A stretch of 64,000 nucleotides of DNA from Phycomyces blakesleeanus NRRL 1555(-) (lineage: Eukaryota; Mucoromycota; Mucoromycetes; Mucorales; Phycomycetaceae): assembly GCF_001638985.1 (NCBI RefSeq), contig NW_017265156.1, positions 248,001-312,000 on the forward strand, written 5' to 3'. A model generated the notes under the pieces. It was given only the letters and a program-made list of their open reading frames with translations. It searched no databases and had not been told where the DNA came from. Below are positions 12,364 through 63,681 of the stretch, piece by piece (the first letter of the stretch is position 1; every line of letters starts with the position of its first letter). Made by a program: the position numbers and the translations under genes.

Positions 12364-12451
12364 ACCCTGGCGCGCTATTTGCACCTTTGCTTTATAACCT
12401 ATATTTTATATTTTTCAACGTCTTAAAAAACTAATTAACAAATCTACCATA

Positions 12452-13513
12452 ATGCCAAACACACAAAAGAATAACTCTCGTGGGCCCTATAATGTGCTTT
12501 CAGATTTGACGAAAGGAAAGATCCTTGGACTTCAACTTGATGGAAATAATGTTGCCAGCATTTCAGCCAAGCTGAATGTACCCAAATCAACAGTTCGATA
12601 TTTTTTAAAGAGATATAAAGAAAGAGGAACTGCCGATAACAGAAAGTCTTCTGGAAGACCACAGATCCTCACACCTAGAGACAAAAGACGTATTGTCTCG
12701 AATCTCAAAAAAGATAGGTGGTCAACGTTGGATGATCTTGTTGATGATGCTAGTGCTGACACGGGAAAGAATGTCAGCAAGGTTACCATGCGTAAAGCTT
12801 TGCACAGCATGGACTATTTTTGCCGTAAACCTGTGTCAAAGCATTTTCTTACCAAGGCACACATTGCCAAACGCCGAGCTTGGTACAAAACCGTGAAAGA
12901 CTGGAATAAACAGTGGGAAACAGCTATCTGGAGTGACGAGTCGTCATTTGTGCTGTATAAGAAAAATTCAAGCAGAAAACTCTGGCGCAAAACTGGTGAG
13001 AGGTTTGATACGGATCACTTTGTCCCAAAGGTGCAAGGAAATGGTGGATCGGTTATGGTCTGGGGGTGTATCTGGTCAGGAGGACTTAGTCCACTTGTTT
13101 TCGTAGATGAAAACATGGATGGTCCAAGATATGTAGAAGTTCTTCGAGACCATTTTCTTCCATTCTTGCATGCTCTTCCTGTACCTAGCAGCGGGAGCTA
13201 CAAGTTTCAGGAAGATAATGCCAAGGCGCATAAATCAAAAGTTGCAGGAAAGTTCAAGAAAAAACATGGTATTGATGTTTTGCAATGGCCACCCAACAGC
13301 CCTGACCTTAGCCCCATTGAGAATATATGGGGAATCATTGATCACAGAATCAGAGCAAGACGCCCCAGACCAAATTCTCTGAATGAGCTGAAGGCTGCTT
13401 TGTTGGAAGAGTGGAACAAAATATCAGCAAAAACTTGTAGAAGATGCTGCTTGAATATGCCAAATCGATTGGCCTTACTTAAGAAAAAGAAATTTAAGCG
13501 AATCCGCTATTAA
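12452..13513 (+). CDS. Tc1/mariner transposase, DD34E type, intact (353 aa)
   Basis: This enzyme excises and reinserts the element by cut-and-paste at TA dinucleotides. The N-terminus has paired helix-turn-helix DNA-binding domains (about residues 15-62 and 75-125) joined by a GRPQILTPR linker, the GRPR-like hook of the family. The catalytic triad is visible: Asp162 in IWSDESSF, Asp255 in FQEDNAKAH, and Glu290 in SPDLSPIENIWG. There are 34 residues between the second Asp and the Glu, which makes it DD34E. The WGCIWSGGLSPLVFVD segment is also typical. There is no intron, stop or frameshift. The ATG lies 112 bp inside the left end. All catalytic residues are present, so activity is plausible but unproven. 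Confidence 0.96.
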   Translation: MPNTQKNNSRGPYNVLSDLTKGKILGLQLDGNNVASISAKLNVPKSTVRYFLKRYKERGTADNRKSSGRPQILTPRDKRRIVSNLKKDRWSTLDDLVDDASADTGKNVSKVTMRKALHSMDYFCRKPVSKHFLTKAHIAKRRAWYKTVKDWNKQWETAIWSDESSFVLYKKNSSRKLWRKTGERFDTDHFVPKVQGNGGSVMVWGCIWSGGLSPLVFVDENMDGPRYVEVLRDHFLPFLHALPVPSSGSYKFQEDNAKAHKSKVAGKFKKKHGIDVLQWPPNSPDLSPIENIWGIIDHRIRARRPRPNSLNELKAALLEEWNKISAKTCRRCCLNMPNRLALLKKKKFKRIRY

Positions 13514-15636: not shown

Positions 15637-18378
15637 ATGTTGGTTATTTGGTTTATAATATACATCTTCTGTGTGCCTGCTTATGCATACAGCACAATTA
15701 TCGATGTCCTGTCAAAAGATCCTCGGTTTACTCTTCTTCTCTTACATCTTCAAAGAAATCGACTGGTGCCTCTAGTAAACAATCTCCAGGCAGGAACTCT
15801 ATTTGCACCAGAAAACGATGCCTTTAAAGTCTACACAGGGACAATCACTCGGAATAAGCTTCTTTATCACATATTGCCTACTCGCTTCTTAACAGAAGAT
15901 TTCTATCACGGACAGTTGCTCGAAAGTCGTTATGTCCGCCCGCAATTCCTGGGTGTGAATGAGACTGGCCAACAACTAAAGATCACCACAAGATCTAATC
16001 TCCAAGACATTGCGATGTTTGTTAACCAAGCACAGATCATCGAAAATGACATTCCTGTAAACCAAAAAACTGTCATTCAGGCTGTCAATTGCATCCTTGA
16101 ACCACCCCCGATGCTAAGTAAGATCTTATTAGTAATTTGCTAACAAACATTAACTTACTTATATATATATGTGTGTGTGTGCGTGTGCGTATGCTCAGGT
16201 GAACAAGCAGAGTATCACAACCCAGAGTATGCCAAACTATTGGGCAGGATAGGCCTTTTCGATCTCTTGAAAGAAGCACGACCCTTTACGTTGTTTGTGA
16301 CACCTCGCGATGTGCTTTCAATGTTTAATTTCATAGAAACATGCTATATTCTTTCATCTTATGGCCAAACCGACCTTCAGAATCTATTAAACTATACTCT
16401 TGTCAATGGTGTTATTTACTCAAACCAGTTTAAAGGCGTAGCTGAATGTAAGCCATTATCTCCTCCTTTTTATTTTTACATAGATACATAGATACATAGA
16501 TATATAGATGCAGACATATATATATATAAGAGAAAAAAAAAAGAACCAGAATTTCCTCAAGACCGCTTATTAATGAGCACAGACGTAACATTATCCGGGG
16601 AAAATATTGTTGTCGACGCACGTATAACCGACAGTATCACTGTTAATGGCATTCCCGTAACTCAAACGGATGTCATTGCTGCCAATGGTAGGACACTTAA
16701 TTTAAATAAGTATATATCTTTGTATACTTATAATATTTTGTAGGGGTAATTCATATTGTAGAAAACGTCATGATGCCTTCAAATATTGTGCTTGACACTC
16801 GAAAATATCTATATGGCATGAATGCTACTAAAATGGCATCGTTGTTGGACAGCCGAGGGTTGGGTCGTTACATGGATTTAGGAGGTTACACATTTTATAC
16901 CATTCTGGCACCTGCAAATGACGCTATATTTGAAGATGATATTCCAATAAGCACCCAAAAAGACTGGCTCCGTTACCACATTCTGAAAGGCTTGTGGTAT
17001 CCAGAAAAGCTAGAAGACGGAATGTTGATACAGTCGGAATCCACTCCTCCTCAACTCGACGGGAATCCAATCCGACTACCGGTTCACATTGATCAACGCG
17101 CGGCTCCTGATGACAAAAGTGTTTATGAAATGGGAACTTCCATTAGGTTTGGTCAGTCGCGAGTTCTTGGAGATCCGGGTAATTTTTCTTTGCTTAAATT
17201 AATTGGTGTAGATACATACATTATTCGATATTCTAACCAGCCATTCTTTTTTTTCGGCTTTGATTATCCTAGTTGCCATTGGAAGAAGTCTGGTTTATCC
17301 TGTGTCCGAGCCACTGGATCTCCCTGGAAATTTGCTAACGAGTCTTGTGGTAGATCTCGAGGTATCCACCTTTATCACGATGCTTTTCATCTCTGGTGTT
17401 GTCAAGGAATTTGAGGCTGCCAGAGGAATTACTTTGTTTGTACCTACCAATGCCGCATTCCATCGCCTCGGACTCACGGCAAAGTACCTTGTCCACCCGT
17501 CCGCAAAAGCCCAGCTCCAGAGCGTACTGCGGTACCATGCAGCGCAGTCTTTGGTGTACCATAAAGATATGATGCAGCCTTCGTTGGATATCATGACTCT
17601 CAACAATATCTTTTTGCGTGTTCAAAACACCCTCAGCAACATCACGGTCGGATCTCCTGACGGGGACTGCGAATCTGGTCTGGTGGACACTACGAACCTT
17701 TTGGTGTCCAACGGTGTAATTCACAAAATGGACCGTGTCTTGATTCCACACACTGTACATATCACTCACGATCACATCTTGCTCGGCGTCGGTGCAACGG
17801 CAATGCAGGCACTTTTGCGCCGCAGTAAAGTAGAGCTTCAGAGAGACTGGATTTTGCTGGCACCCACCAACCGAGCATTTGCACGAATCGACTTTGAAGC
17901 CATTCTTAACAACGACGAAGAACGCGACAAGCTTGTCAAGATGCATATCATCCCCGCAGTCTGGCAGACCAAGACACCTTACGACGAAAACCGAGACCAA
18001 GTTATCGGGATTGCATCCGACGAAGAAGGTGATGGAGAATACCCAACTTTGCTGTCAGACTTTGACCGAGTAGTGATCGGCAATTCCGGAAATGGAGAAC
18101 GTACTGTGAAAGTTAGAGGGTGGCGTCCTGGAGTACATGCCCATGTTCTAGGTGTAGGACATGTTCAGTTTGGAAGAGGAGCTGTGGTTGAAGTGGATAC
18201 GATTCTTGTGCCTATCGAGCGTGGTTATTGGGGCCTTCCGATCGAATGGTCTAATGCTTTGGTCGGTACTTCAGTTTCTGGATTAGTTGTGATTACAGGA
18301 CTTTGCGTGTGTCTTGGGCGCAAATTGTACAAAAGGCGTAGACTGGGATATGAAACAATTCCTGAACCACCCACATAA
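15637..18378 (+). CDS. Secreted/membrane-anchored fasciclin (FAS1) protein with five FAS1-like domains (about 814 aa)
   Basis: Exons 15637-16117, 16199-16447, (16514 or 16531)-16687, 16744-17178 and 17273-18378. The first 17 residues are a signal peptide ending AYA. Five FAS1-like units follow, recognisable by paired motifs such as GTLFAPENDAF, FTLFVTPRD, YTILAPANDAIF, ITLFVPTNAAFHRLG and WILLAPTNRAFARID, each followed by a YHIL or similar histidine motif and a late NGVIH/VDTILVP motif. A transmembrane segment (about residues 770-790) and a basic tail KLYKRRRLGYETIPEPPT close the protein, so it is a type I membrane protein. FAS1 domains act in cell adhesion. The exon 2/3 junction is unclear: the obvious CAG acceptor at 16549 with the GTAAGC donor creates a stop. 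Two in-frame alternatives exist (donor 16448 with acceptor 16513, or donor 16438 with acceptor 16530). Confidence 0.85.
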
Positions 18379-47228: not shown

Positions 47229-47412
47229 GAAAAGCCGTGTGGGCTTACTTTATATCCCTCTTTCGATTTCTTCGATTTTTATACACACCCACATGTATAT
47301 GTATATGTAAAGTATATACATATAAGTCACTATACTATTCATTTATATCTCGTTTTTTGTTTTGTTTTCATTATGTATTCTATCCCACCAAATATATATA
47401 CTTTTTTCTTAG
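47173..47412 (+). promoter_or_regulatory. Candidate alternative intron between MOCS1A and MOCS1B
   Basis: Donor GTATGT interrupts the codon after His-Ala (phase 1), and the acceptor TTCTTAG restores frame with the MoaC part. If the intron is retained, translation runs on through [17 protein letters not shown] and stops at 47226-47228, giving complete MOCS1A. If it is spliced, the GG tail is removed and a MOCS1A-MOCS1B fusion is made. Human MOCS1 uses exactly this type of choice. Transcript data are needed. Confidence 0.7.
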
Positions 47413-47969
47413 CAATCGCTTTATCTGTGGTGCCGTCCTTTCTTTTATCACCACTCCAAAGGCGTCATTATAGTTCTCAGAACCGCCTTACTCACACAGA
47501 CCCTAAAACAGGCGAAGCTCGTATGGTTGCTGTAGAAGGGAAGAAAGACAGTCAGAGAGAAGCAAGGGCAGTGGGAAGGATTGTGCTACCATCAGAAGCC
47601 TTTAAGCTACTCAAGAAGAATGAAATTCATACTCTTAAAGGAAATGTTCTTGTTGTTGCTCAGATTGCAGGCATTCAAGCTTCTAAGCAAACAAGTCAAC
47701 TCATCCCACTTTGCCATCCGCTTGCTCTAACATTCATCAATGTCAACCTTTGGCTCGATGATGAAAAGAGCAGCGTCGAATGTGAATCGACTGTTAGGAC
47801 AGTTGGAAAGACAGGTGTCGAAATGGAGGCTTTAATGGCAACAAGCACGGCCTTACTCACAGTCTATGATATGTGCAAGGCAGCATCAAAATATATGGTC
47901 ATTCAGGACATTCACGTCGTTTCGAAAGAAGGGGGCAAAAGTGGGTCATGGCAATGGGAAAATAAATGA
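47413..47969 (+). CDS. MOCS1: MOCS1B/MoaC domain, cyclic pyranopterin monophosphate synthase
   Basis: MoaC converts the MoaA product to cyclic pyranopterin monophosphate. The frame reads RLTHTDPKTGEARMVAVEG, then RIVLPSEAFKLLKKNEIHTL, KGNVLVVAQIAGIQASKQTS, LIPLCHPLALTFINVNLWLD and VGKTGVEMEALMATSTALLT, ending YDMCKAASKYMVIQDIHV. All are MoaC signatures, including the LCHPL and KTGVEMEAL motifs. It follows MOCS1A by 184 bp on the same strand. A GTATGT donor at 47173, just before the MOCS1A tail, and a TTAG acceptor at 47412 define a 240-bp intron that joins the two in phase, giving a 528-aa fusion without the terminal GG. Otherwise a start such as the in-frame ATG at 47373 would be needed on a bicistronic message. 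The 24 residues after the junction (AIALSVVPSFLL, then a RRHYSS stretch) form the linker. Confidence 0.9.
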
Positions 47970-55362: not shown

Positions 55363-57999
55363 TCAAAAATCATATACACTTTCAGTTTTGTAGACAACAC
55401 CATCGTCTCTAACCAATAGTAAAGGAAGAGATCGTCTGGATGAGTGTTCAGAATATTCAACAAAAGGATTATTAACAAGTTCTTCGGCTGGGGGTACAAT
55501 ACAAGAAAGAGTGTCTTTGTGATATTCGGTTTTGAGCTGGATATCAGCCAGCCAGACAGAAAGCTTGGCAGAGAGGCCCTCGCCTGAGAGAACCAGATTG
55601 TCAGAGGTATCAAGAGATCGACAAATCTTGTGAGTAAGTCTGGGGAAAGGAGTAACGGGCCGTAAGTCAGAAGAGTTTGCAAGAGGAGAAGGTGTCCAGA
55701 AGGTGTAAGTTGCACAATCAGTGCCAACAATAGTCCAAATTGCTGCGTCCGATACATCTTCTGTCCAACATCCACCATTAATGCCCTGAAGAGAGTCGGT
55801 TGATGGTCTTCTGCTCCCTGTCACAGATGATTGAGAAGCTCGGCGCTGAGTTGTGTCAGGTAGGGCATCATTGAGAGAGTTGACACGGCGACGGTTCTTT
55901 GCCGACATTGCAGATTGGAATTTGGCGGGCAAAGTAACAGGCTTGGTCACATCGCATGATACGCGTCTCTTTCGGACCACACGTCCGTTTTCTTGAGACA
56001 CTGCTGACGATAAAAGATCATATTCATATGGCCACGCTGGATCGGTTACAGGAAGAAGAGTACGAGGGGCAGTAGTGCGATGCATCCCGACCACTTCACT
56101 CAGACAGGCCAAGTAAGTAATAGGATCTGTACTTTGGGGTAGTGACCATTCAGGACAATTTTCGATAGGCGCCGTTTGGCGAAGAGGATCATGGACGATT
56201 TGAAAGGCTATCTTATGGAGCTGGGACACTGGATCTCCAAGCGCTTCATCGCCGCATTCGCCTCCTGATCCTAATGGTCGCGCTACTCGGTTTCCACCTT
56301 GAACAAGACTCCCGCGGTCTGCTTTACGGATTATCATTACTGGGCTAACAAGACCAGTTGTTGCGCATTGTAATACAATTGCTTGATTGTATAAAATAGC
56401 TGTTGGTTGATTTGTCTGAAGTTGAAGAGCAATGGCAGGCGGAGGAGGCATACCCGGTGTGTCTGGGGGAGGACGGTTGTTTGTTTCTTGAGTACGGGTT
56501 GTATCTGCAATCCAGATGATAAATGGATCCCAAGAACCTGTCCGGGCTACAAAGCATGCGCCAGTGACATCTTTTTCTCCTGCTGACACACCAAGATATT
56601 TGGTTGACACAGTTTGAGAACGGATACGGTTGAACAATGAAATGGGAGTTCCATGATGGATACACACTATGAGCGAGTATCATATCAATATCAAACGATT
56701 GGCTGGAGTAAAGTACTCACATTCCATATTACGAGCGCTTTGGCGCTTCTTGGATGGCTTGGATATGACTTTGATACTCTGACTGCAAAAATTGCCGAGA
56801 TTGAAGCCACTTGACAGTTGTATATTTACCTGGACCTCGACTCTCTTGCGTTTTTCGTCAACATCGCTGATGTGTAGATGTTTCGAGACACATTTACCCA
56901 ACATCGATGGGTCATCGGCGGCGATGGCAGCTCCCGCACCTTCTGCGTCTAGCATAGTTCCAGAAGAGTACCAGTCAAGTATGCCTGTCTGTGATGCCGC
57001 CTCACCAGACACATGCACTGTCAGCCGAGGAGGACTTGGAACACGACTATCTGCAGGTGCTTTGCAGTTGTGTGTCCACCAGTTTGGACCTTGCAAGATA
57101 GTTGATGGTGGTGGACATAGAAATCTCTTTTCAGTACCATAACTTTTCTGAGCTACCTTGCTTGTTAAAAGCATTGCAGTGTAGCAATTTTCGGGGCTGT
57201 TTTGTAGCAAATAATGTTGAATACTAGACTTCAGGGAATCTGATTGCTGAGCATAACTCATAGACTGAAGTGAGGGAATAGGAGGCGACGGTGATGTTGA
57301 TGGTGAAGATTGCATTGGTGGTGGGGTGAGGGCTTCTTGCTTTATTGAAGCATTAAGTACCCAGTGCGTCATTTCATCTACATCTGTAGGTACAAATGTT
57401 TGTGGTATGTAGCTGGAAATAGGATCATATAGACCAAGAGGATCTATGTTAAGGTTGAGTGGAAAGGTATCTTGAAAGGTGTCCTGGAAAGTGTCGTGTT
57501 CTTCTTCTTCTGAGTTGAGGGCATCAAGGAAATTCGGGGGAAAGAATACAGGCGTGCTAGGCCCAGGGGTAATCCGAGCGACGTCTGGGATAAGGGTGAG
57601 TGTGCGACGATGGACTGAATTTGGTCGTTCACGATGAGTGCCTTGGCTTGATGAAGACGACCAAGAGGAAGGTAGAGAAGAGCCAAACAGTTGACTGAGA
57701 TCAGGGTCCCACTGCTCTGGTGTAGTTGTCGTTGCAGGTTCCTGCTTGACAGGAAAAGAGTGATAATTGAGTTCACCTACAGCTACTGAGTGTCTTCGAG
57801 AGTGATCATTAGCTTGAGTGATATCTGTCATGGCACTGTCTTGGAGAATACCAGGCATGCCGAAGAGGTCAATGCTAGGTTGTTGTAAGCTGTTAGAGTC
57901 CATATAATCAGACCATGGTGTAAGATATTTTGGGTCATTAAATTCTTGCTTGCGTTTCCGAGAGGTATCGGTGAGTTCACAGTTGTTGAGCGTAGTCAT
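55363..57999 (-). CDS. CSL (RBP-J/Su(H)/LAG-1) family transcription factor, fungal type (two exons, 860 aa)
   Basis: Exons 57999-56721 and 56666-55363, intron 54 bp, phase 1. CSL proteins bind GTGGGAA-type sites. Residues 1 to about 280 are a disordered Ser/Thr/Pro/Gln-rich extension. The Rel-like N-terminal domain starts with KVAQKSYGTEKRFLCPPP, the CSL DNA-contact motif. The beta-trefoil domain carries LCIHHGTPISLFNRIRSQTV, the second signature. The C-terminal IPT-like domain includes WTIVGTDCATYTFW. Insertions of Ser/Pro/Gly-rich sequence split the trefoil, as in fungal class F1/F2 CSL proteins (Cbf11/Cbf12 in fission yeast, acting in lipid metabolism, adhesion and cell cycle). Fungi lack Notch, so this reflects the ancestral role of the family. 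The start is the first ATG with an open frame, and the long N-tail suggests the Cbf12-like class. Confidence 0.95.
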
Positions 58000-58842
58000 T
58001 CTGTACAGAGTTATCGCACAGCGATGAAGATTGAAATATTGAAAGAAAAGAAGGCTGGAAAAGGCGGGGCAATCTCACCGGTGGGCCAAACTCACCTTTT
58101 TTAAACACAAAGAAGCGTGACACAAAAACCTGTAGCAACCGGATTACATTGGCCAAATTACTTAAGATTCCGCCTCTCCTTATAGACACACCATACGCCA
58201 CCCCGCACTTTGCAGCCAGACCAATCAATATCACTCACGATGATTGAGAACATGGAAAGATGGGCGACGGGCAGAAAATGAATGGACGGGACATGTTTTA
58301 AAACAATCATTGACCTTACATACAAATACACTAATGATATTAAAGACGACCCTAAAAAAAATTCAATCATAATCCGATAAAGGTACTCTGCTTTCTCTTT
58401 TCTTTTGATTTTATAATAAAGAAAGAAGGGGATAGGGGGCTATTAGTAATATTTTCAGAAATTAAAAAAAAAACAATAATAAAAAAGAGCCTAAATGACT
58501 CTTGGCAGATTAACACTGACCTAAAGAAGTGTTGTGGTGCTCCAGTTCAGATTTCCTTTCTCAGATCGAACACAAGGCCATGTCAAGTGAGCATTGAACT
58601 GAAACGTACAACCAGTTCAGGTCTTGCTCTGTTAGGGCGCCGATTCTTTATTTTCAAGAAACCCATTCTTTTTCCCGTCTTTGATTTCGCATTTTTAGAA
58701 AAACTTGCGTCTAACAAGCCGCTCATTTGCTCTTTATTTATCTTTGTCACAAATATTTTTAACTCAAGATATATATATATTGTTCAAAAAGCTGTATGCC
58801 TTTTTTTTTATAAAAAAAAAAATCGAATTCTTAATTCACTAT
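58000..58842. other. Divergent promoter between CSL and KICS2 genes
   Basis: 843 bp. No GTGGGAA or TTCCCAC site was seen, so no CSL autoregulation is evident. A poly-A/poly-T tract directly precedes the KICS2 ATG. No other gene is supported. Short plus-strand frames at 58587 and 58705 lead into the KICS2 first exon but lack family similarity. Confidence 0.5.
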
Positions 58843-60667
58843 ATGGATTTATGCATCTCCAATCTAAAGGCACTTGGAGCCTTTGACTATGGTGCTGCAA
58901 ACAAACTCGTCACTCGTCCAATACGGATATACCCACCACTCAACACCATATTCTTTAAACTCATAACCTGCGAAACCCTCTACACTCAGTTATCTTATAT
59001 GAAGCCAAAATGGTTTACTAGAAAAGACACTGTAAGTTAGAATATTACAGGATGCATGCCTTGATTACCTAAATGTCTCATCGTCATTAGCTTCTTAACT
59101 CCCAATATGCTCATCTCGCAGACGAAATTACACGCGAGATTTCACTGATCGATTCAAATCCTTCAATTACTCAAGAAAGGGCGTCCGTAACCCTTTTACT
59201 ACAAAGCCTTAGTGAATTTTGTCGATGTCGCCAGTTGTTGATTAGCATGTATAACTATTTTTGCTTGCTTGTTTATTTATTTTAACGTTGAATATTTAAC
59301 TTTTATTTATTTTGTTTTATTTTATTCATTTAATTATTATTATTATTATTACTATTTAAAAAAGATATCATTCGATGGCAACTCAAACCACCCCCAGTGG
59401 TACAGAAGCCATGATCCAAGAACTCCTCCTTCTTAGTAACCTATGCACTGAATCATCACTACCAGATCATCTTTATATACTTGGGCTGGGCGTCGAAAAA
59501 GAAATCAATATCCTCCTTTCGTTGCTTAGAGCAAGAACAGCTATCGTCAATTATGCCTTTCAGGACGCATGTATATCTTTATTTGTTTGCAAACAAGATC
59601 TCAGTGACTGGAAATCCACCTGCGAAGAGCAGGATTTTTTGGAAGTGAGCATTTTTTTAGATAAAGGAAAAGGAAGAAAGAAAATGAAGGGTTTGTGTAA
59701 ATACCTTAAACTAATGCAAAGCTTGGGGGGAATGTTTCTTGTTTAATTTTTGGAGAAATCGCCAATGCATTGTGAACAATCGCGCGACGCAGCATCAACA
59801 TGGAGACTCTCAATTTTTGGCAACACATCGGAGGTAACTAAACCAAGAATTGCTTATTTGATATCTTAGTCTAAGTCAAGAAACAGGGAAAACAGAAGCA
59901 AGGACATGTATGGCCCCAAACTTTACGATGGCAAGCACGCTACCTCGACAATCTAGCCGCCAAAATGACACTATATTTTAGTACCATTCTAATATCCAAA
60001 GAAAGCATACTCACTGAAGATGATCCTGAAAAGGCTTTATGGAAAGGTCTCCAAGTAGATTACCATGATCAGTAAGCCACATTGAGAATACATTGTGTTA
60101 ATTTTGGTGTCGGATTGAACTAACAGCATTCTTGTCATCCCCCCTGTACCTCCCAGGATCTGCACGTTCCGAAGACGCTTCAATGCGTTTAGTATCAGCC
60201 TTGTGTATGAGGTCACATCAACACCTTTTCATCCTCAAGGTTATGTGTGTGCAGGCACGCCATATGAACCGCCCCAGGGTATCCACTCATTTCCATTTAT
60301 CTATTGTCATCCAAAGGTAAAATAATGATAATATATGCCATGTAAATCGTCTCGATCGCTTTTGCAGATCTTAATAAAGATATTCTCTATGTAGCAAGCG
60401 CCAAAAGACCACCTGCCAAACATTATATCAATCATTCAAGGATGTCGTCATAAACTAGGAGATCCAAAAGGAAGTCCAGTATACTTTTTTGATAACAGGA
60501 TTTCAAGCACCTACTACTTTATGCGTGTTGATGAACACGTTGTCTTGGTAATCATTTACCTCGACAAGCATCTCCACCGTGAACCGACTACCTCTGATTT
60601 TATGACTTCATTAGTCACATCACTTCGAGGATCCTCTGTCATAGGGGAACTTGTGCGGATGGAGTAA
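58843..60667 (+). CDS. KICS2: KICS2 (C12orf66-like) KICSTOR subunit homologue (seven exons, 452 aa)
   Basis: Exons 58843-59031, 59091-59248, 59365-59644, 59756-59833, 59881-60071, 60127-60316 and 60395-60667. In animals KICSTOR tethers GATOR1 to lysosomes for amino-acid control of mTORC1. Similarity to animal KICS2 runs end to end: N-terminal helix with CETLYTQLSYMKPKWFTRKD, then LGLGVEKEINILLSLLRARTA, TWRLSIFGNTSE, PQTLRWQARYLDNLAAKMTL, and a C-terminal domain containing VYFFDNRISSTYYFMRVDEH followed by VVLVIIYLDKHLHRE. Length matches the animal protein (about 445). The acceptors of exons 3 to 5 (AAAAAG, TTGGAG, TCAAG) are weak in sequence, but phase and homology agree at every junction. The start codon is the least certain point. 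The family assignment rests on remembered similarity and should be confirmed by profile search. Confidence 0.85.
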
Positions 60668-61025
60668 TTCAAATATCCTTGCGCCATTGGGACAAATCTG
60701 ATGTCGACTAGTACAAAATAATAGAAAAAGCATATCTGGTCCATGTTAAAATGAAGTTAGAGAGACAATGTAATTACACCTTGATTTGGCTAAGAAAAAT
60801 AAATACAAACATAAACATTATGAAAAAACTGAAAGCCAAAATGGCAAAAGATAGCAAACAGAACCAAGTTTGGAATCAAGAAGCTAAGAGCATCGATAAT
60901 TAGAGAATGCCAACCGCGTTTACTTGAAATCCAAAAAATAATAATCCAAGCTTGTATAAATACTTGGTTCCATCGTTTGCCAACCTACTTCATCTGCATT
61001 CTTATCTGTCTTTTATACCAACACA
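60668..61025 (+). other. Spacer and promoter of the repeat precursor
   Basis: 358 bp between two plus-strand genes. A clear TATA box lies 71 bp before the next ATG. The remainder is AT-rich with no gene. Confidence 0.55.
60955..60962 (+). promoter_or_regulatory. TATA box (TATAAATA) of the secreted repeat precursor
   Basis: A consensus TATAAATA sits 71 bp upstream of the ATG at 61026, preceded by a less AT-rich segment. A strong TATA box is unusual among genes in this window and is typical of highly or conditionally expressed fungal genes. Confidence 0.7.
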
Positions 61026-63551
61026 ATGCGCTTCTCTCTTGCTGCCATTGCGGTCCTTTCCCTCAGTAATCTCACATTCGCCCTTCCTTCATTCCCTGAA
61101 GAGGCTGCCAGTGCAAGTGCTTATGAAGTTGCCTCTGCCTCTGCCGCTGCTTATTCCCCAGCTTCAGCTTCCGTACAAGGATCCTATGCAAAGGTCGGAT
61201 CAAAGCGTAATATCATCGAATTCTTTAAGAATCTCATGTACTTTGAAGAGCCTACCGCTCTCGAATCATCGCTGGCCGAAGAGAATGTCTTAGAGGAAGT
61301 CTCTGAAGCATCTGCATCTGCTTACCAGTCTGCTTCCGCTTATGCTAAGCGTGGTTTCTTGAACGATCCTTTTGAGTTCTTCCCTGCTGAAGCTTCAGCT
61401 GCTTATGGAGCTATCCCCTTAGCTTCCGCCTCGCAAGCCGCAGGATCCATGGTTGCCTATGCCGAAGATTTCTCAGTAGCCACTAACACCGACTCTGTTC
61501 CTTTCGCTGCAAGCAATGACCAGATCTTGAACAAACGTGGAATAATCCTTAACTTCTTGGATAGTCTCTTTGATGATCTTTCACCCTCTTCTTCTTCGTC
61601 TTCCAGCGAACCTGCTCCATCTTCCGACAGCAGCCTTCTCAAGAAGCGTGGTATTTTCCTCGACATTTTGGAAGATCTCGTCGATGACCTTTCTCCCTCT
61701 TCGTCTTCTTCCTCAAGCGAGCCTGCTCCATCCTCTGACAACAGTCAGCCCAAGAAGCGTGGTATCTTCCTCGACATTTTGAATGATCTCGTTGACGACT
61801 TATCGCCCTCTTCGTCGTCGTCTTCCAGCGAACCTGCTCCATCTTCTGACAGCAGCCTCCTCAAGAAGCGTGGTATCTTCCTCGACATTTTGAATGATCT
61901 CGTTGACGATCTTTCACCCTCTTCTTCTTCGTCTTCCAGCGAGCCTGCCCCATCTTCTGACAATAGCCAGCCAAAGAAGCGTGGTATCTTCCTTGACATT
62001 TTGGGTGATATCGTTGATGATCTTTCCCCCTCTTCGTCGTCGTCTTCCAGCGAGCCTGCTCCATCTTCTGACAACAGCCAGCCAAAGAAGCGTGGTATCT
62101 TCCTCGACATTTTGAATGATCTCGTTGACGATCTTTCACCCTCTTCTTCTTCGTCTTCCAGCGAGCCTGCCCCATCTTCTGACAACAGCCAGCCAAAGAA
62201 GCGTGGTATCTTCCTCGACATTTTGGGTGATATCGTTGACGATCTTTCCCCCTCTTCGTCGTCGTCTTCCAGCGAGCCTGCTCCATCTTCTGACAACAGC
62301 CAGCCAAAGAAGCGTGGTATCTTCCTCGATGTTTTGGAAGATCTTGTTGACGACCTTTCTCCTTCGTCCTCATCTTCATCTGATTCCAGCGAGCCTTCCT
62401 CTTCCGAAGGTGGCCTTTTGAAGAAGCGTGATGCCCTCGAAGATTTCCTCCGCGAGTTCTTCAGTGATATCGATTTCGACTTCCCCACAGAAAGTGCTTC
62501 ATCCTCAAGCGATGAGAGCGCCGCTCCAACTGACGATAGCGCTTCTGCTCCTGCCGACGACAGTGCTCCTCCTCCTCCTCCTACCGATGACAGTGTTCCT
62601 CCCCCTGCTGATGACAGTGTTCCTCCCCCTGCCGATGACAGTGTTCCTCCCCCTGCCGATGACAGTGTTCCTCCTCCAGCCGATGACAGTGCCCCTGCCG
62701 CTGCTCCAGCTCTTAATAAGCGTGGTATTATCATTAACTTCTTGGATGAGCTCTTTGGTGAGGCCGCTCCCGAGGCTTCTGTCTCCGCCAGCGCATCAGC
62801 ATATTCTGTTGACAATGCTCGCTTTGAAAAGCGTGATTTCTTCATGGATGCTTTGGATGATATCATTAACGATGTCTTGCCAATTCCTTTGTCTTCTTCT
62901 GCTTCCGAGTCTGAGTCTGCTTCTCCAGCTTCCGCATCTCCAGCTTCCGCATCTGCTTACTATGCCGATGCCGTATACAAGCGTGATCTTTTTGAGCTTA
63001 TCGAAGATCTCTTTGAGGACGATTCTTCATCCTCCCAGTCCGAGTCTGCTTCTGCCTCTGAGCCTGAATCATCCGCCTCCGCATATGCTTACCCTGCTGA
63101 GGCCTATTACAAGCGTGAAATCATTGGTGACTTGATTGATGCTGTCACTGACGATAAGCCTTCAGATTCCTCTGAGGATGAGGAAGCCGATACCGAAGAG
63201 GCCCAGCCTGCTGAGGAAGACAACAGTGCTCCTGCTGAGGAAGAGGAGAGTGAAGCCCCTGCTGACTCTGCTTCAGAGTCTGCCTCCTCCCCTGCTACTG
63301 AGGCCTCCGAGGCCTTCGTCGACTATGGTGTTATGGAGGAGTCATACCAGGACAATTTGGACGCCCAAATGATGGCTGAGGATGTTGCTTATCTTGATAC
63401 CCTTCCCTCTATGAACTTTGAGAAGCGCGCCCATCACAACATGAACAGAATGGCTTCTGCTTCCGCCTCCGCTTCTGTTGCCTCTTTTGCCAGCGCTGCT
63501 TACGCTGACTCTGATGTGTACATGGAGGCTCTGGAGCGTATGAACTTTTAA
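61026..63551 (+). CDS. Secreted kexin-processed repeat precursor releasing acidic amphipathic peptides (841 aa, single exon)
   Basis: The first 20 residues are a signal peptide (MRFSLAAIAVLSLSNLTFA). The rest is cut into about 17 segments by 16 Lys-Arg sites, nearly all preceded by Asn, Glu, Tyr or Lys and followed by Gly, Asp, Asn or Glu, fitting Kex2 cleavage in the secretory pathway. Eight consecutive units of 37-38 residues (61539-62429) each start with a 14-residue amphipathic acidic helix such as GIFLDILNDLVDDL, followed by a Ser-rich EPAPSS linker and KKR. Further, diverged helices follow each later KR (ALEDFLREFF, IIINFLDELF, DFFMDALDDI, LFELIEDLFE, IIGDLIDAVT). A DDSVPPPA repeat lies in one linker. 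The architecture resembles fungal KEP genes (Ustilago Rep1, Candida Ece1), but the sequence is not one I recognise. Whether the peptides are signals, surface coats or membrane-active is unknown. Confidence 0.9.
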   Translation: MRFSLAAIAVLSLSNLTFALPSFPEEAASASAYEVASASAAAYSPASASVQGSYAKVGSKRNIIEFFKNLMYFEEPTALESSLAEENVLEEVSEASASAYQSASAYAKRGFLNDPFEFFPAEASAAYGAIPLASASQAAGSMVAYAEDFSVATNTDSVPFAASNDQILNKRGIILNFLDSLFDDLSPSSSSSSSEPAPSSDSSLLKKRGIFLDILEDLVDDLSPSSSSSSSEPAPSSDNSQPKKRGIFLDILNDLVDDLSPSSSSSSSEPAPSSDSSLLKKRGIFLDILNDLVDDLSPSSSSSSSEPAPSSDNSQPKKRGIFLDILGDIVDDLSPSSSSSSSEPAPSSDNSQPKKRGIFLDILNDLVDDLSPSSSSSSSEPAPSSDNSQPKKRGIFLDILGDIVDDLSPSSSSSSSEPAPSSDNSQPKKRGIFLDVLEDLVDDLSPSSSSSSDSSEPSSSEGGLLKKRDALEDFLREFFSDIDFDFPTESASSSSDESAAPTDDSASAPADDSAPPPPPTDDSVPPPADDSVPPPADDSVPPPADDSVPPPADDSAPAAAPALNKRGIIINFLDELFGEAAPEASVSASASAYSVDNARFEKRDFFMDALDDIINDVLPIPLSSSASESESASPASASPASASAYYADAVYKRDLFELIEDLFEDDSSSSQSESASASEPESSASAYAYPAEAYYKREIIGDLIDAVTDDKPSDSSEDEEADTEEAQPAEEDNSAPAEEEESEAPADSASESASSPATEASEAFVDYGVMEESYQDNLDAQMMAEDVAYLDTLPSMNFEKRAHHNMNRMASASASASVASFASAAYADSDVYMEALERMNF
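61539..62429 (+). repeat. Eight tandem coding repeats of 111-114 bp
   Basis: Unit starts are at 61539, 61650, 61761, 61872, 61983, 62094, 62205 and 62316. Units alternate between NDLVDDL and GDIVDDL types in the middle of the array; the pair 61872-62093 differs from the pair 62094-62315 at only about three bases, which indicates recent duplication of a 222-bp dimer. Confidence 0.92.
62583..62696 (+). repeat. 24-bp coding repeat (DDSVPPPA, about four copies)
   Basis: Four near-identical units encoding Asp-Asp-Ser-Val-Pro-Pro-Pro-Ala, flanked by diverged copies (DDSAPPPPP and DDSAPAAA). It lies within a long linker of the precursor and probably varies in copy number. Confidence 0.85.
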
Positions 63552-63681
63552 GTTCAAGCTTATATTACTTATCTAATTAAAAATTCGAATATTCCCTTGT
63601 TGCACCTTACTTGTTTTACATTGCACATATAATAAAATTGCTTTTTCTGAAAATATATCTCTTTAACTCTTATTGTTTTGC

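Follow-up and report, generated by a model that had tools for sequence, protein, structure and literature searches.

What is made by a gene whose protein product is interrupted by Lys-Arg (KR) at 16 places, and what might the intervening segments do once released? The question is raised by a reading frame at positions 61026-63551 (+) of the window, the 64,000-nucleotide stretch of Phycomyces blakesleeanus NRRL 1555(-) DNA analysed here.

Gene and precursor structure

The frame begins with the ATG at 61026 and reads without introns or internal stops (0) to a stop codon that ends at 63551. Its product is 841 aa long and contains 0 Cys and 0 Trp, and the G+C content of the gene is 0.507 compared with 0.363 for the window. 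A preliminary description of this DNA had proposed a secreted precursor with a TATA box, a signal peptide and 16 KR sites. Each has its counterpart in the sequence: TATAAA lies 71 nt before the ATG (a consensus match only), an apparent signal peptide is indicated by hydropathy and the -3,-1 rule, and KR was counted 16 times, compared with a mean of 0.68 and a maximum of 6 in 20,000 shuffles of the protein. The gene and the predicted division of its product are as follows:

60955..60962, +: TATAAATA box; TATAAA start 71 nt upstream of the ATG (consensus match only)
61026..63551, +: predicted secreted multi-peptide precursor (KEP, see below); uninterrupted frame of 841 aa with 16 KR
61026..61082, +: apparent signal peptide MRFSLAAIAVLSLSNLTFA spanning residues 1-19, with a putative cut after T-F-A (from hydropathy and a -3,-1 scan)
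61083..61208, +: Ala/Ser-rich N-terminal propeptide, residues 20-61, to the first KR
61209..61352, +: variant peptide 62-109; face slipped by one residue, SASAY motif in the linker
61353..61538, +: variant peptide 110-171, weak; core contains Pro
61539..61649, +: unit 172-208 with the variant core GIILNFLDSLFDDL; shares the 37-aa plan and the linker of the array
61650..62429, +: seven units spanning residues 209-468, each with the core GIFLD[IV]L.D[LI]VDDL, Ser/Pro-rich tail and KKR, within the 111-bp tandem array
62430..62723, +: variant peptide 469-566, core DALEDFLREFFSDI followed by an Asp/Pro-rich linker of 24-bp repeats (VPPPADDS)
62724..62834, +: peptide 567-603, a variant with the core GIIINFLDELFGEA
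62835..62984, +: peptide 604-653, a variant with the core DFFMDALDDIINDV
62985..63116, +: peptide 654-697, a variant with the core DLFELIEDLFEDD, its face slipped
63117..63428, +: peptide 698-801, a variant with the core EIIGDLIDAVTDD and a long acidic tail
63429..63548, +: Ser/Ala-rich C-terminal tail 802-841, downstream of the final KR; does not carry the family helix pattern
63631..63636, +: AATAAA poly(A)-signal-like motif, 3' of the stop (consensus match only)

Residues 172-468 form eight consecutive units of 37-38 aa, each composed of an acidic 14-residue core, a Ser/Pro-rich tail and KKR, and Tandem Repeats Finder reported a 111-bp array of 7.2 copies. The flanking fragments carry diverged cores, and their linkers are variable and Ser/Ala- or Asp/Pro-rich. 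Since the unit pairs 283/357 (99% alike) and 320/394 (98%) are closer than the other pairs of these four (91-94%), a two-unit block appears to have been duplicated recently. Among the seven 111-nt units, pN/pS was 0.31 in the cores and 0.11 in linkers 15-34 (rough values from 21 pairs that are not independent), and the whole unit, tail included, therefore looks constrained; judged from the codons, the array tails look to be held as strictly as the cores or more so. A second tandem repeat within the precursor gene, of 24 bp, lies at 62573-62691 (+) and encodes the Asp/Pro-rich linker VPPPADDS.

Probable membership in the KEX2-processed repeat proteins

In the available portions of two surveys (PMC6339444; PMC7329392), KEX2-processed repeat proteins (KEPs) are defined by a signal peptide with no further membrane segment and by at least three similar repeats of at least 8 aa between KR, KK, RK or RR sites, none of them longer than 100 aa and together accounting for 15% or more of the protein. 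In the precursor, hydropathy together with a -3,-1 analysis gives an apparent signal peptide (a hydrophobic N-terminal core and a T-F-A site), where the definition itself relies on SignalP. Past residue 25 the highest 19-residue Kyte-Doolittle mean is 1.0, in keeping with no extra membrane segment; all eight units end in KKR, and they comprise 297 of the 841 residues (∼35%). From these features we regard the precursor as very probably a KEP, and the plan proposed earlier (signal peptide, repeats between Kex2 sites, Ser-rich linkers, copies together with variants) agrees with the published sequence definition.

KEPs have been reported in nearly all fungi, with an average of 9.15 in Mucoromycota strains, and 2560 of 7878 KEPs were without homologues (PMC7329392, available text). 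A KEP with no known relatives in Mucoromycota is therefore expected rather than surprising. The role of KEPs in Mucoromycotina is called open in the portion available of PMC6339444. Phycomyces is named in the main text of neither survey. Coprinopsis KEPs have been expressed in Pichia (PMC9769878, available text). What is distinctive here, as far as sequence can tell, is the predicted acidic head-and-tail amphiphile design; acidic amphipathic helices are a feature of the precursor that does not appear in the KEP descriptions in the available parts of these surveys (PMC6339444; PMC7329392).

Predicted acidic amphipathic helices after the KR sites

The preliminary description had also claimed a short helix after 14 or more of the KR sites, with hydrophobic residues on one face and Asp/Glu on the other. 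The count stands when read leniently (14 of 16 post-KR stretches) but falls to 11 of 16 when read strictly. In these 11 stretches, hydrophobic residues occupy all of positions 2, 3, 6, 7, 10, 11 and 14, a mask that each stretch would fit by chance with a probability of 0.0001-0.003 after shuffling of its own residues. By eye, the stretches from residues 62, 654 and 698 have a comparable face that has slipped by one residue, the stretch from 110 is weak and contains Pro, and the stretch from 802 (the C-terminal tail) does not fit. As a control, the mask was applied to ten other window frames, where it fitted 0 of 34 14-mers following KR or RR. Of all 3826 14-mers in those frames it fitted 11, and none of these combined two or more Asp/Glu with an absence of Lys/Arg.

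Helical moments, named as a check in the preliminary description, bear the pattern out for the set as a whole. Over nine core types (the main family counted once, the C-terminal tail excluded) the moment averaged 0.289, where shuffled cores gave 0.153±0.026. The phase-coherent moment was 0.231 compared with 0.051±0.026; each value was reached by 0 of 5000 shuffles. The period is helical and best near 95 degrees, with a mean moment of 0.289 at 100 degrees versus 0.086 at 160 degrees (beta). Taken individually, cores 62, 110, 567 and 698 were not significantly amphipathic (p = 0.12, 0.26, 0.09 and 0.17, respectively), nor was the C-terminal tail (802; p = 0.11). Linker 14-mers of the precursor had a mean moment of 0.097 with a maximum of 0.353 (n = 402), and some linkers thus also score high. 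The net charge of all nine core types is negative (−2 to −7), as the acidic face described earlier had implied, and the predicted trimmed peptides of the eight 37-38 aa units carry net charges of −5 to −8.

An AlphaFold2 model of one unit, based on an alignment of 12 window fragments, placed residues 2-14 in a helix with a mean pLDDT of 69.2, and the mean was 84 over residues 1-10. Modelled without an alignment, eight units in a row came out at low confidence (mean pLDDT 42); each unit formed one helix, and several of the helices extended into the Ser-rich linkers.

Predicted processing of the precursor

Kexin-like P-domain matches were found on contigs C8 and C4 of the genome. The gene on C4 (L004, G000:C4:2371664-2374846) also contains S8 subtilase domains, and its frame continues into a hydrophobic segment that was read as membrane-spanning; the gene on C8 (L003, G000:C8:572486-575659) is similar by eye. 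The genome thus holds two separate kexin-like genes, L003 on C8 and L004 on C4; yeast has a single kexin gene. S10 carboxypeptidases gave 23 exon-level matches in the genome.

These results bear on the possibility that the product is an uncut wall or extracellular-matrix protein, with its helices packed against each other in a single chain and the KR sites acting as polar breaks. Ser/Ala/Pro-rich linkers are typical of O-mannosylated wall proteins, and a single ORF with a long C-terminal tail would also suit such a protein. However, kexin-like genes are present, and the K(K)R motifs hold 24 of the 27 Lys and 16 of the 21 Arg residues of the precursor, a near confinement for which there would be no reason if the chain stayed whole. 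The KKR codons, moreover, are identical in 7/7 units. We therefore consider an uncut protein distinctly unlikely.

Comparison with known systems

The closest architecture to that of the precursor is found in Rep1 and Hum3 of Ustilago maydis. According to the sections available of the sources, Rep1 (652 aa) contains 12 amphipathic repeats, each 34-55 aa long and bounded by Kex2 sites (PMC4617103), and gives rise to peptides of 37 aa (PMC6339444), which form surface-active fibrils required for aerial hyphae (PMC4617103) and are amyloid-like (PMC4617103, PMC9769878). The precursor, with its 841 aa and units of 37-38 aa, follows a common plan, and it likewise places amphipathic repeats of some 35-55 aa between Kex2 sites. 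The likeness is one of plan only, because the Rep1 peptides are reported as amyloid-like whereas the period in the precursor is helical; fibrils would still be compatible with it. Hum3 (828 aa) has 17 amphipathic repeats of 31-36 aa, 14 of which are separated by Kex2 motifs, and is described as ending with a hydrophobin domain (PMC4617103, available text), unlike the precursor with its 0 Cys.

Membership of the precursor in the hydrophobins was rejected, as these have eight conserved cysteines. Searches of the genome for both hydrophobin families gave 0 matches, with controls likewise silent, so the absence of hydrophobins from this genome is not established; the search for UstYa (DUF3328, PF11807), the partner gene of ustiloxin-type RiPP precursors, also gave 0 matches and a silent control. 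In the available text of PMC6784888, hydrophobins are scarce in early-diverging fungi.

Ece1 of Candida likewise yields several peptides from one precursor, the active one an amphipathic helix (PMC8787473), and candidalysins are described as amphipathic, helical KEP peptides (PMC8787473, PMC9769878), in the portions of these papers available. The Phycomyces peptides might similarly be a set of secreted anionic membrane-active or antimicrobial variants directed against competitors, inserting once acid neutralises the Asp/Glu face. The wide hydrophobic face of the helices and the several diverged variants per precursor would fit such a role. Against it, lytic peptides of this kind are usually cationic, whereas the trimmed peptides are predicted to be strongly acidic; the cores are short (about 13 residues) and joined to a hydrophilic Ser/Pro tail, and the constraint on the linkers is at least that on the cores. 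No Ece1- or candidalysin-like sequence was found among the candidates scored in homology searches with the precursor as query. On balance, a membrane-active set seems unlikely.

A further alternative is that the gene delivers pheromone- or hormone-like signalling peptides in many copies, as the numerous near-identical copies per precursor, comparable to alpha-factor precursors, would allow; Mucoromycotina KEPs, moreover, have no known role in the available text of PMC6339444. Yet the same text gives apocarotenoids as the sexual pheromones of Mucoromycotina (PMC6339444), and strongly diverged variants in one precursor would be unusual for a single ligand. XA or XP, the STE13 dipeptides, follow KR at only 1 of 16 sites (DA, residue 469); a repeated STE13 spacer is thus lacking, and membership in the ascomycete alpha-pheromone precursors was rejected. 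A signalling role is thus very unlikely.

Copies and homologues

Searches of the 53.5-Mb genome with the whole, N-terminal and C-terminal protein as well as with the core pattern turned up the precursor gene a single time; these genome searches scored the best candidates only, and very diverged relatives could be missed. Nine of the 12 genome matches to the core pattern lie inside the precursor, and the other three, whose frames are 72, 9 and 96 aa long and contain 1, 1 and 2 KR, respectively, were dismissed. Among viral contigs there were 9 pattern matches, 0 of which were confirmed.

The peptide class was not one recognised in the preliminary description, and the protein searches gave the same picture within their reach: no homologue was found at E≤0.01 among 7983 candidates scored with the whole precursor, or at E≤0.1 among 7989 candidates scored with residues 566-841. 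This negative is weak because both candidate lists were limited in size and probably filled up with Ser/Pro-rich words and the precursor's own protein was likewise not returned from a database that includes P. blakesleeanus, P. nitens and Spinellus proteins. Pfam gave no family above cut-off; a match to DUF6604 was rejected as a low-complexity match (19.8 bits compared with a cut-off of 27). Among the papers listed in literature searches on Kex2, hydrophobins and repellents in Phycomyces and Mucorales, none dealt with the precursor gene.

A possible surface coat

The explanation that we prefer, with a probability of roughly 0.45 for the whole, is that the precursor is cut at its KR sites into acidic helical peptides that act as a surface-active coat of the wall. 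The precursor would enter the ER via its signal peptide, kexin would cut after every KR and a carboxypeptidase would presumably trim the trailing K/R. Up to 15 helix-bearing or variant peptides, mostly about 34 aa long, would then be secreted along with the C-terminal tail. A typical peptide would consist of an acidic amphipathic helix of ∼13 residues and a flexible Ser/Pro-rich tail, probably O-mannosylated. Such head-and-tail amphiphiles might gather at the wall-air interface with the acidic face toward the Mucorales wall, which is chitosan-rich and cationic (PMC5872309, PMC6433966, in the text available). With the hydrophobic face turned outward or packed on other helices, they could provide aerial hyphae or sporangiophores with a wetting-resistant coat, comparable to Rep1 in Ustilago.

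The codon usage of the gene is consistent with this picture. Its codon adaptation index (CAI) relative to five EF-1alpha frames was 0.288, compared with 0.083-0.157 for nine other window frames (taken from stop to stop, and thus possibly with non-coding ends) and 0.108±0.007, with a maximum of 0.131, for 1000 recodings of the precursor protein that drew on the codons of these nine frames; EF-1alpha itself scored 0.64-0.79. This bias suggests strong expression of the precursor gene, as would be expected of a coat component.

The step from peptides to surface-active coat is tentative, at somewhat less than even odds in our judgement. A coat is favoured because of the acidic helix with its hydrophilic tail, the codon bias, the Rep1/Hum3 plan, the few or no hydrophobins known from this lineage (PMC6784888) and the chitosan-rich wall. 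The acidity and hydrophilic tail predicted for the peptides speak for a coat or surfactant rather than for a cationic lytic peptide, and we infer an electrostatic tie to chitosan; however, acidic peptides could simply remain soluble. That Mucorales make their aerial structures waterproof or stiff by means of surfactants of this type, acidic alpha-helical peptides cut out by kexin and clamped electrostatically on the chitosan wall, is a long shot. If true, it would represent a third solution beside the hydrophobins (Cys-rich, beta) and the Ustilago repellents (amyloid-like).

Phycomyces is a classic model with giant aerial sporangiophores, and the water resistance of Mucorales surfaces is sparsely described in the literature that we found. 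Should the peptides form a coat, the gene would offer a peptide-level test of the wall-air interface in a hydrophobin-poor lineage. At a minimum, it appears to encode a well-defined KEP whose cargo of acidic helices is unusual, in a phylum for which the available text of PMC6339444 gives no KEP functions.

Neighbouring genes

The gene directly upstream of the precursor, at 59375-60666 (+), resembles the KICSTOR subunit C12orf66/KICS2; the PF09404 match on its frame 59375-59746 scored 20 bits, below the cut-off of 22, and the remainder was assigned by eye. A CSL-type transcription factor frame (LAG1 DNA-binding) lies at 56680-58074 (−). A neighbouring BTB gene matches a Phycomyces blakesleeanus protein with 100% identity over 96% and a P. 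nitens protein with 84%. Elsewhere in the window are a stop-free 371-aa frame for a Tc1/mariner-type transposase (DDE_3, HTH_Tnp_Tc3_2) at 12398-13513 (+), a frame with a Fasciclin domain, possibly a cell-surface adhesion protein, at 17212-18378 (+), and a MoaC frame (PF01967, 171 bits) at 47229-47969 (+).
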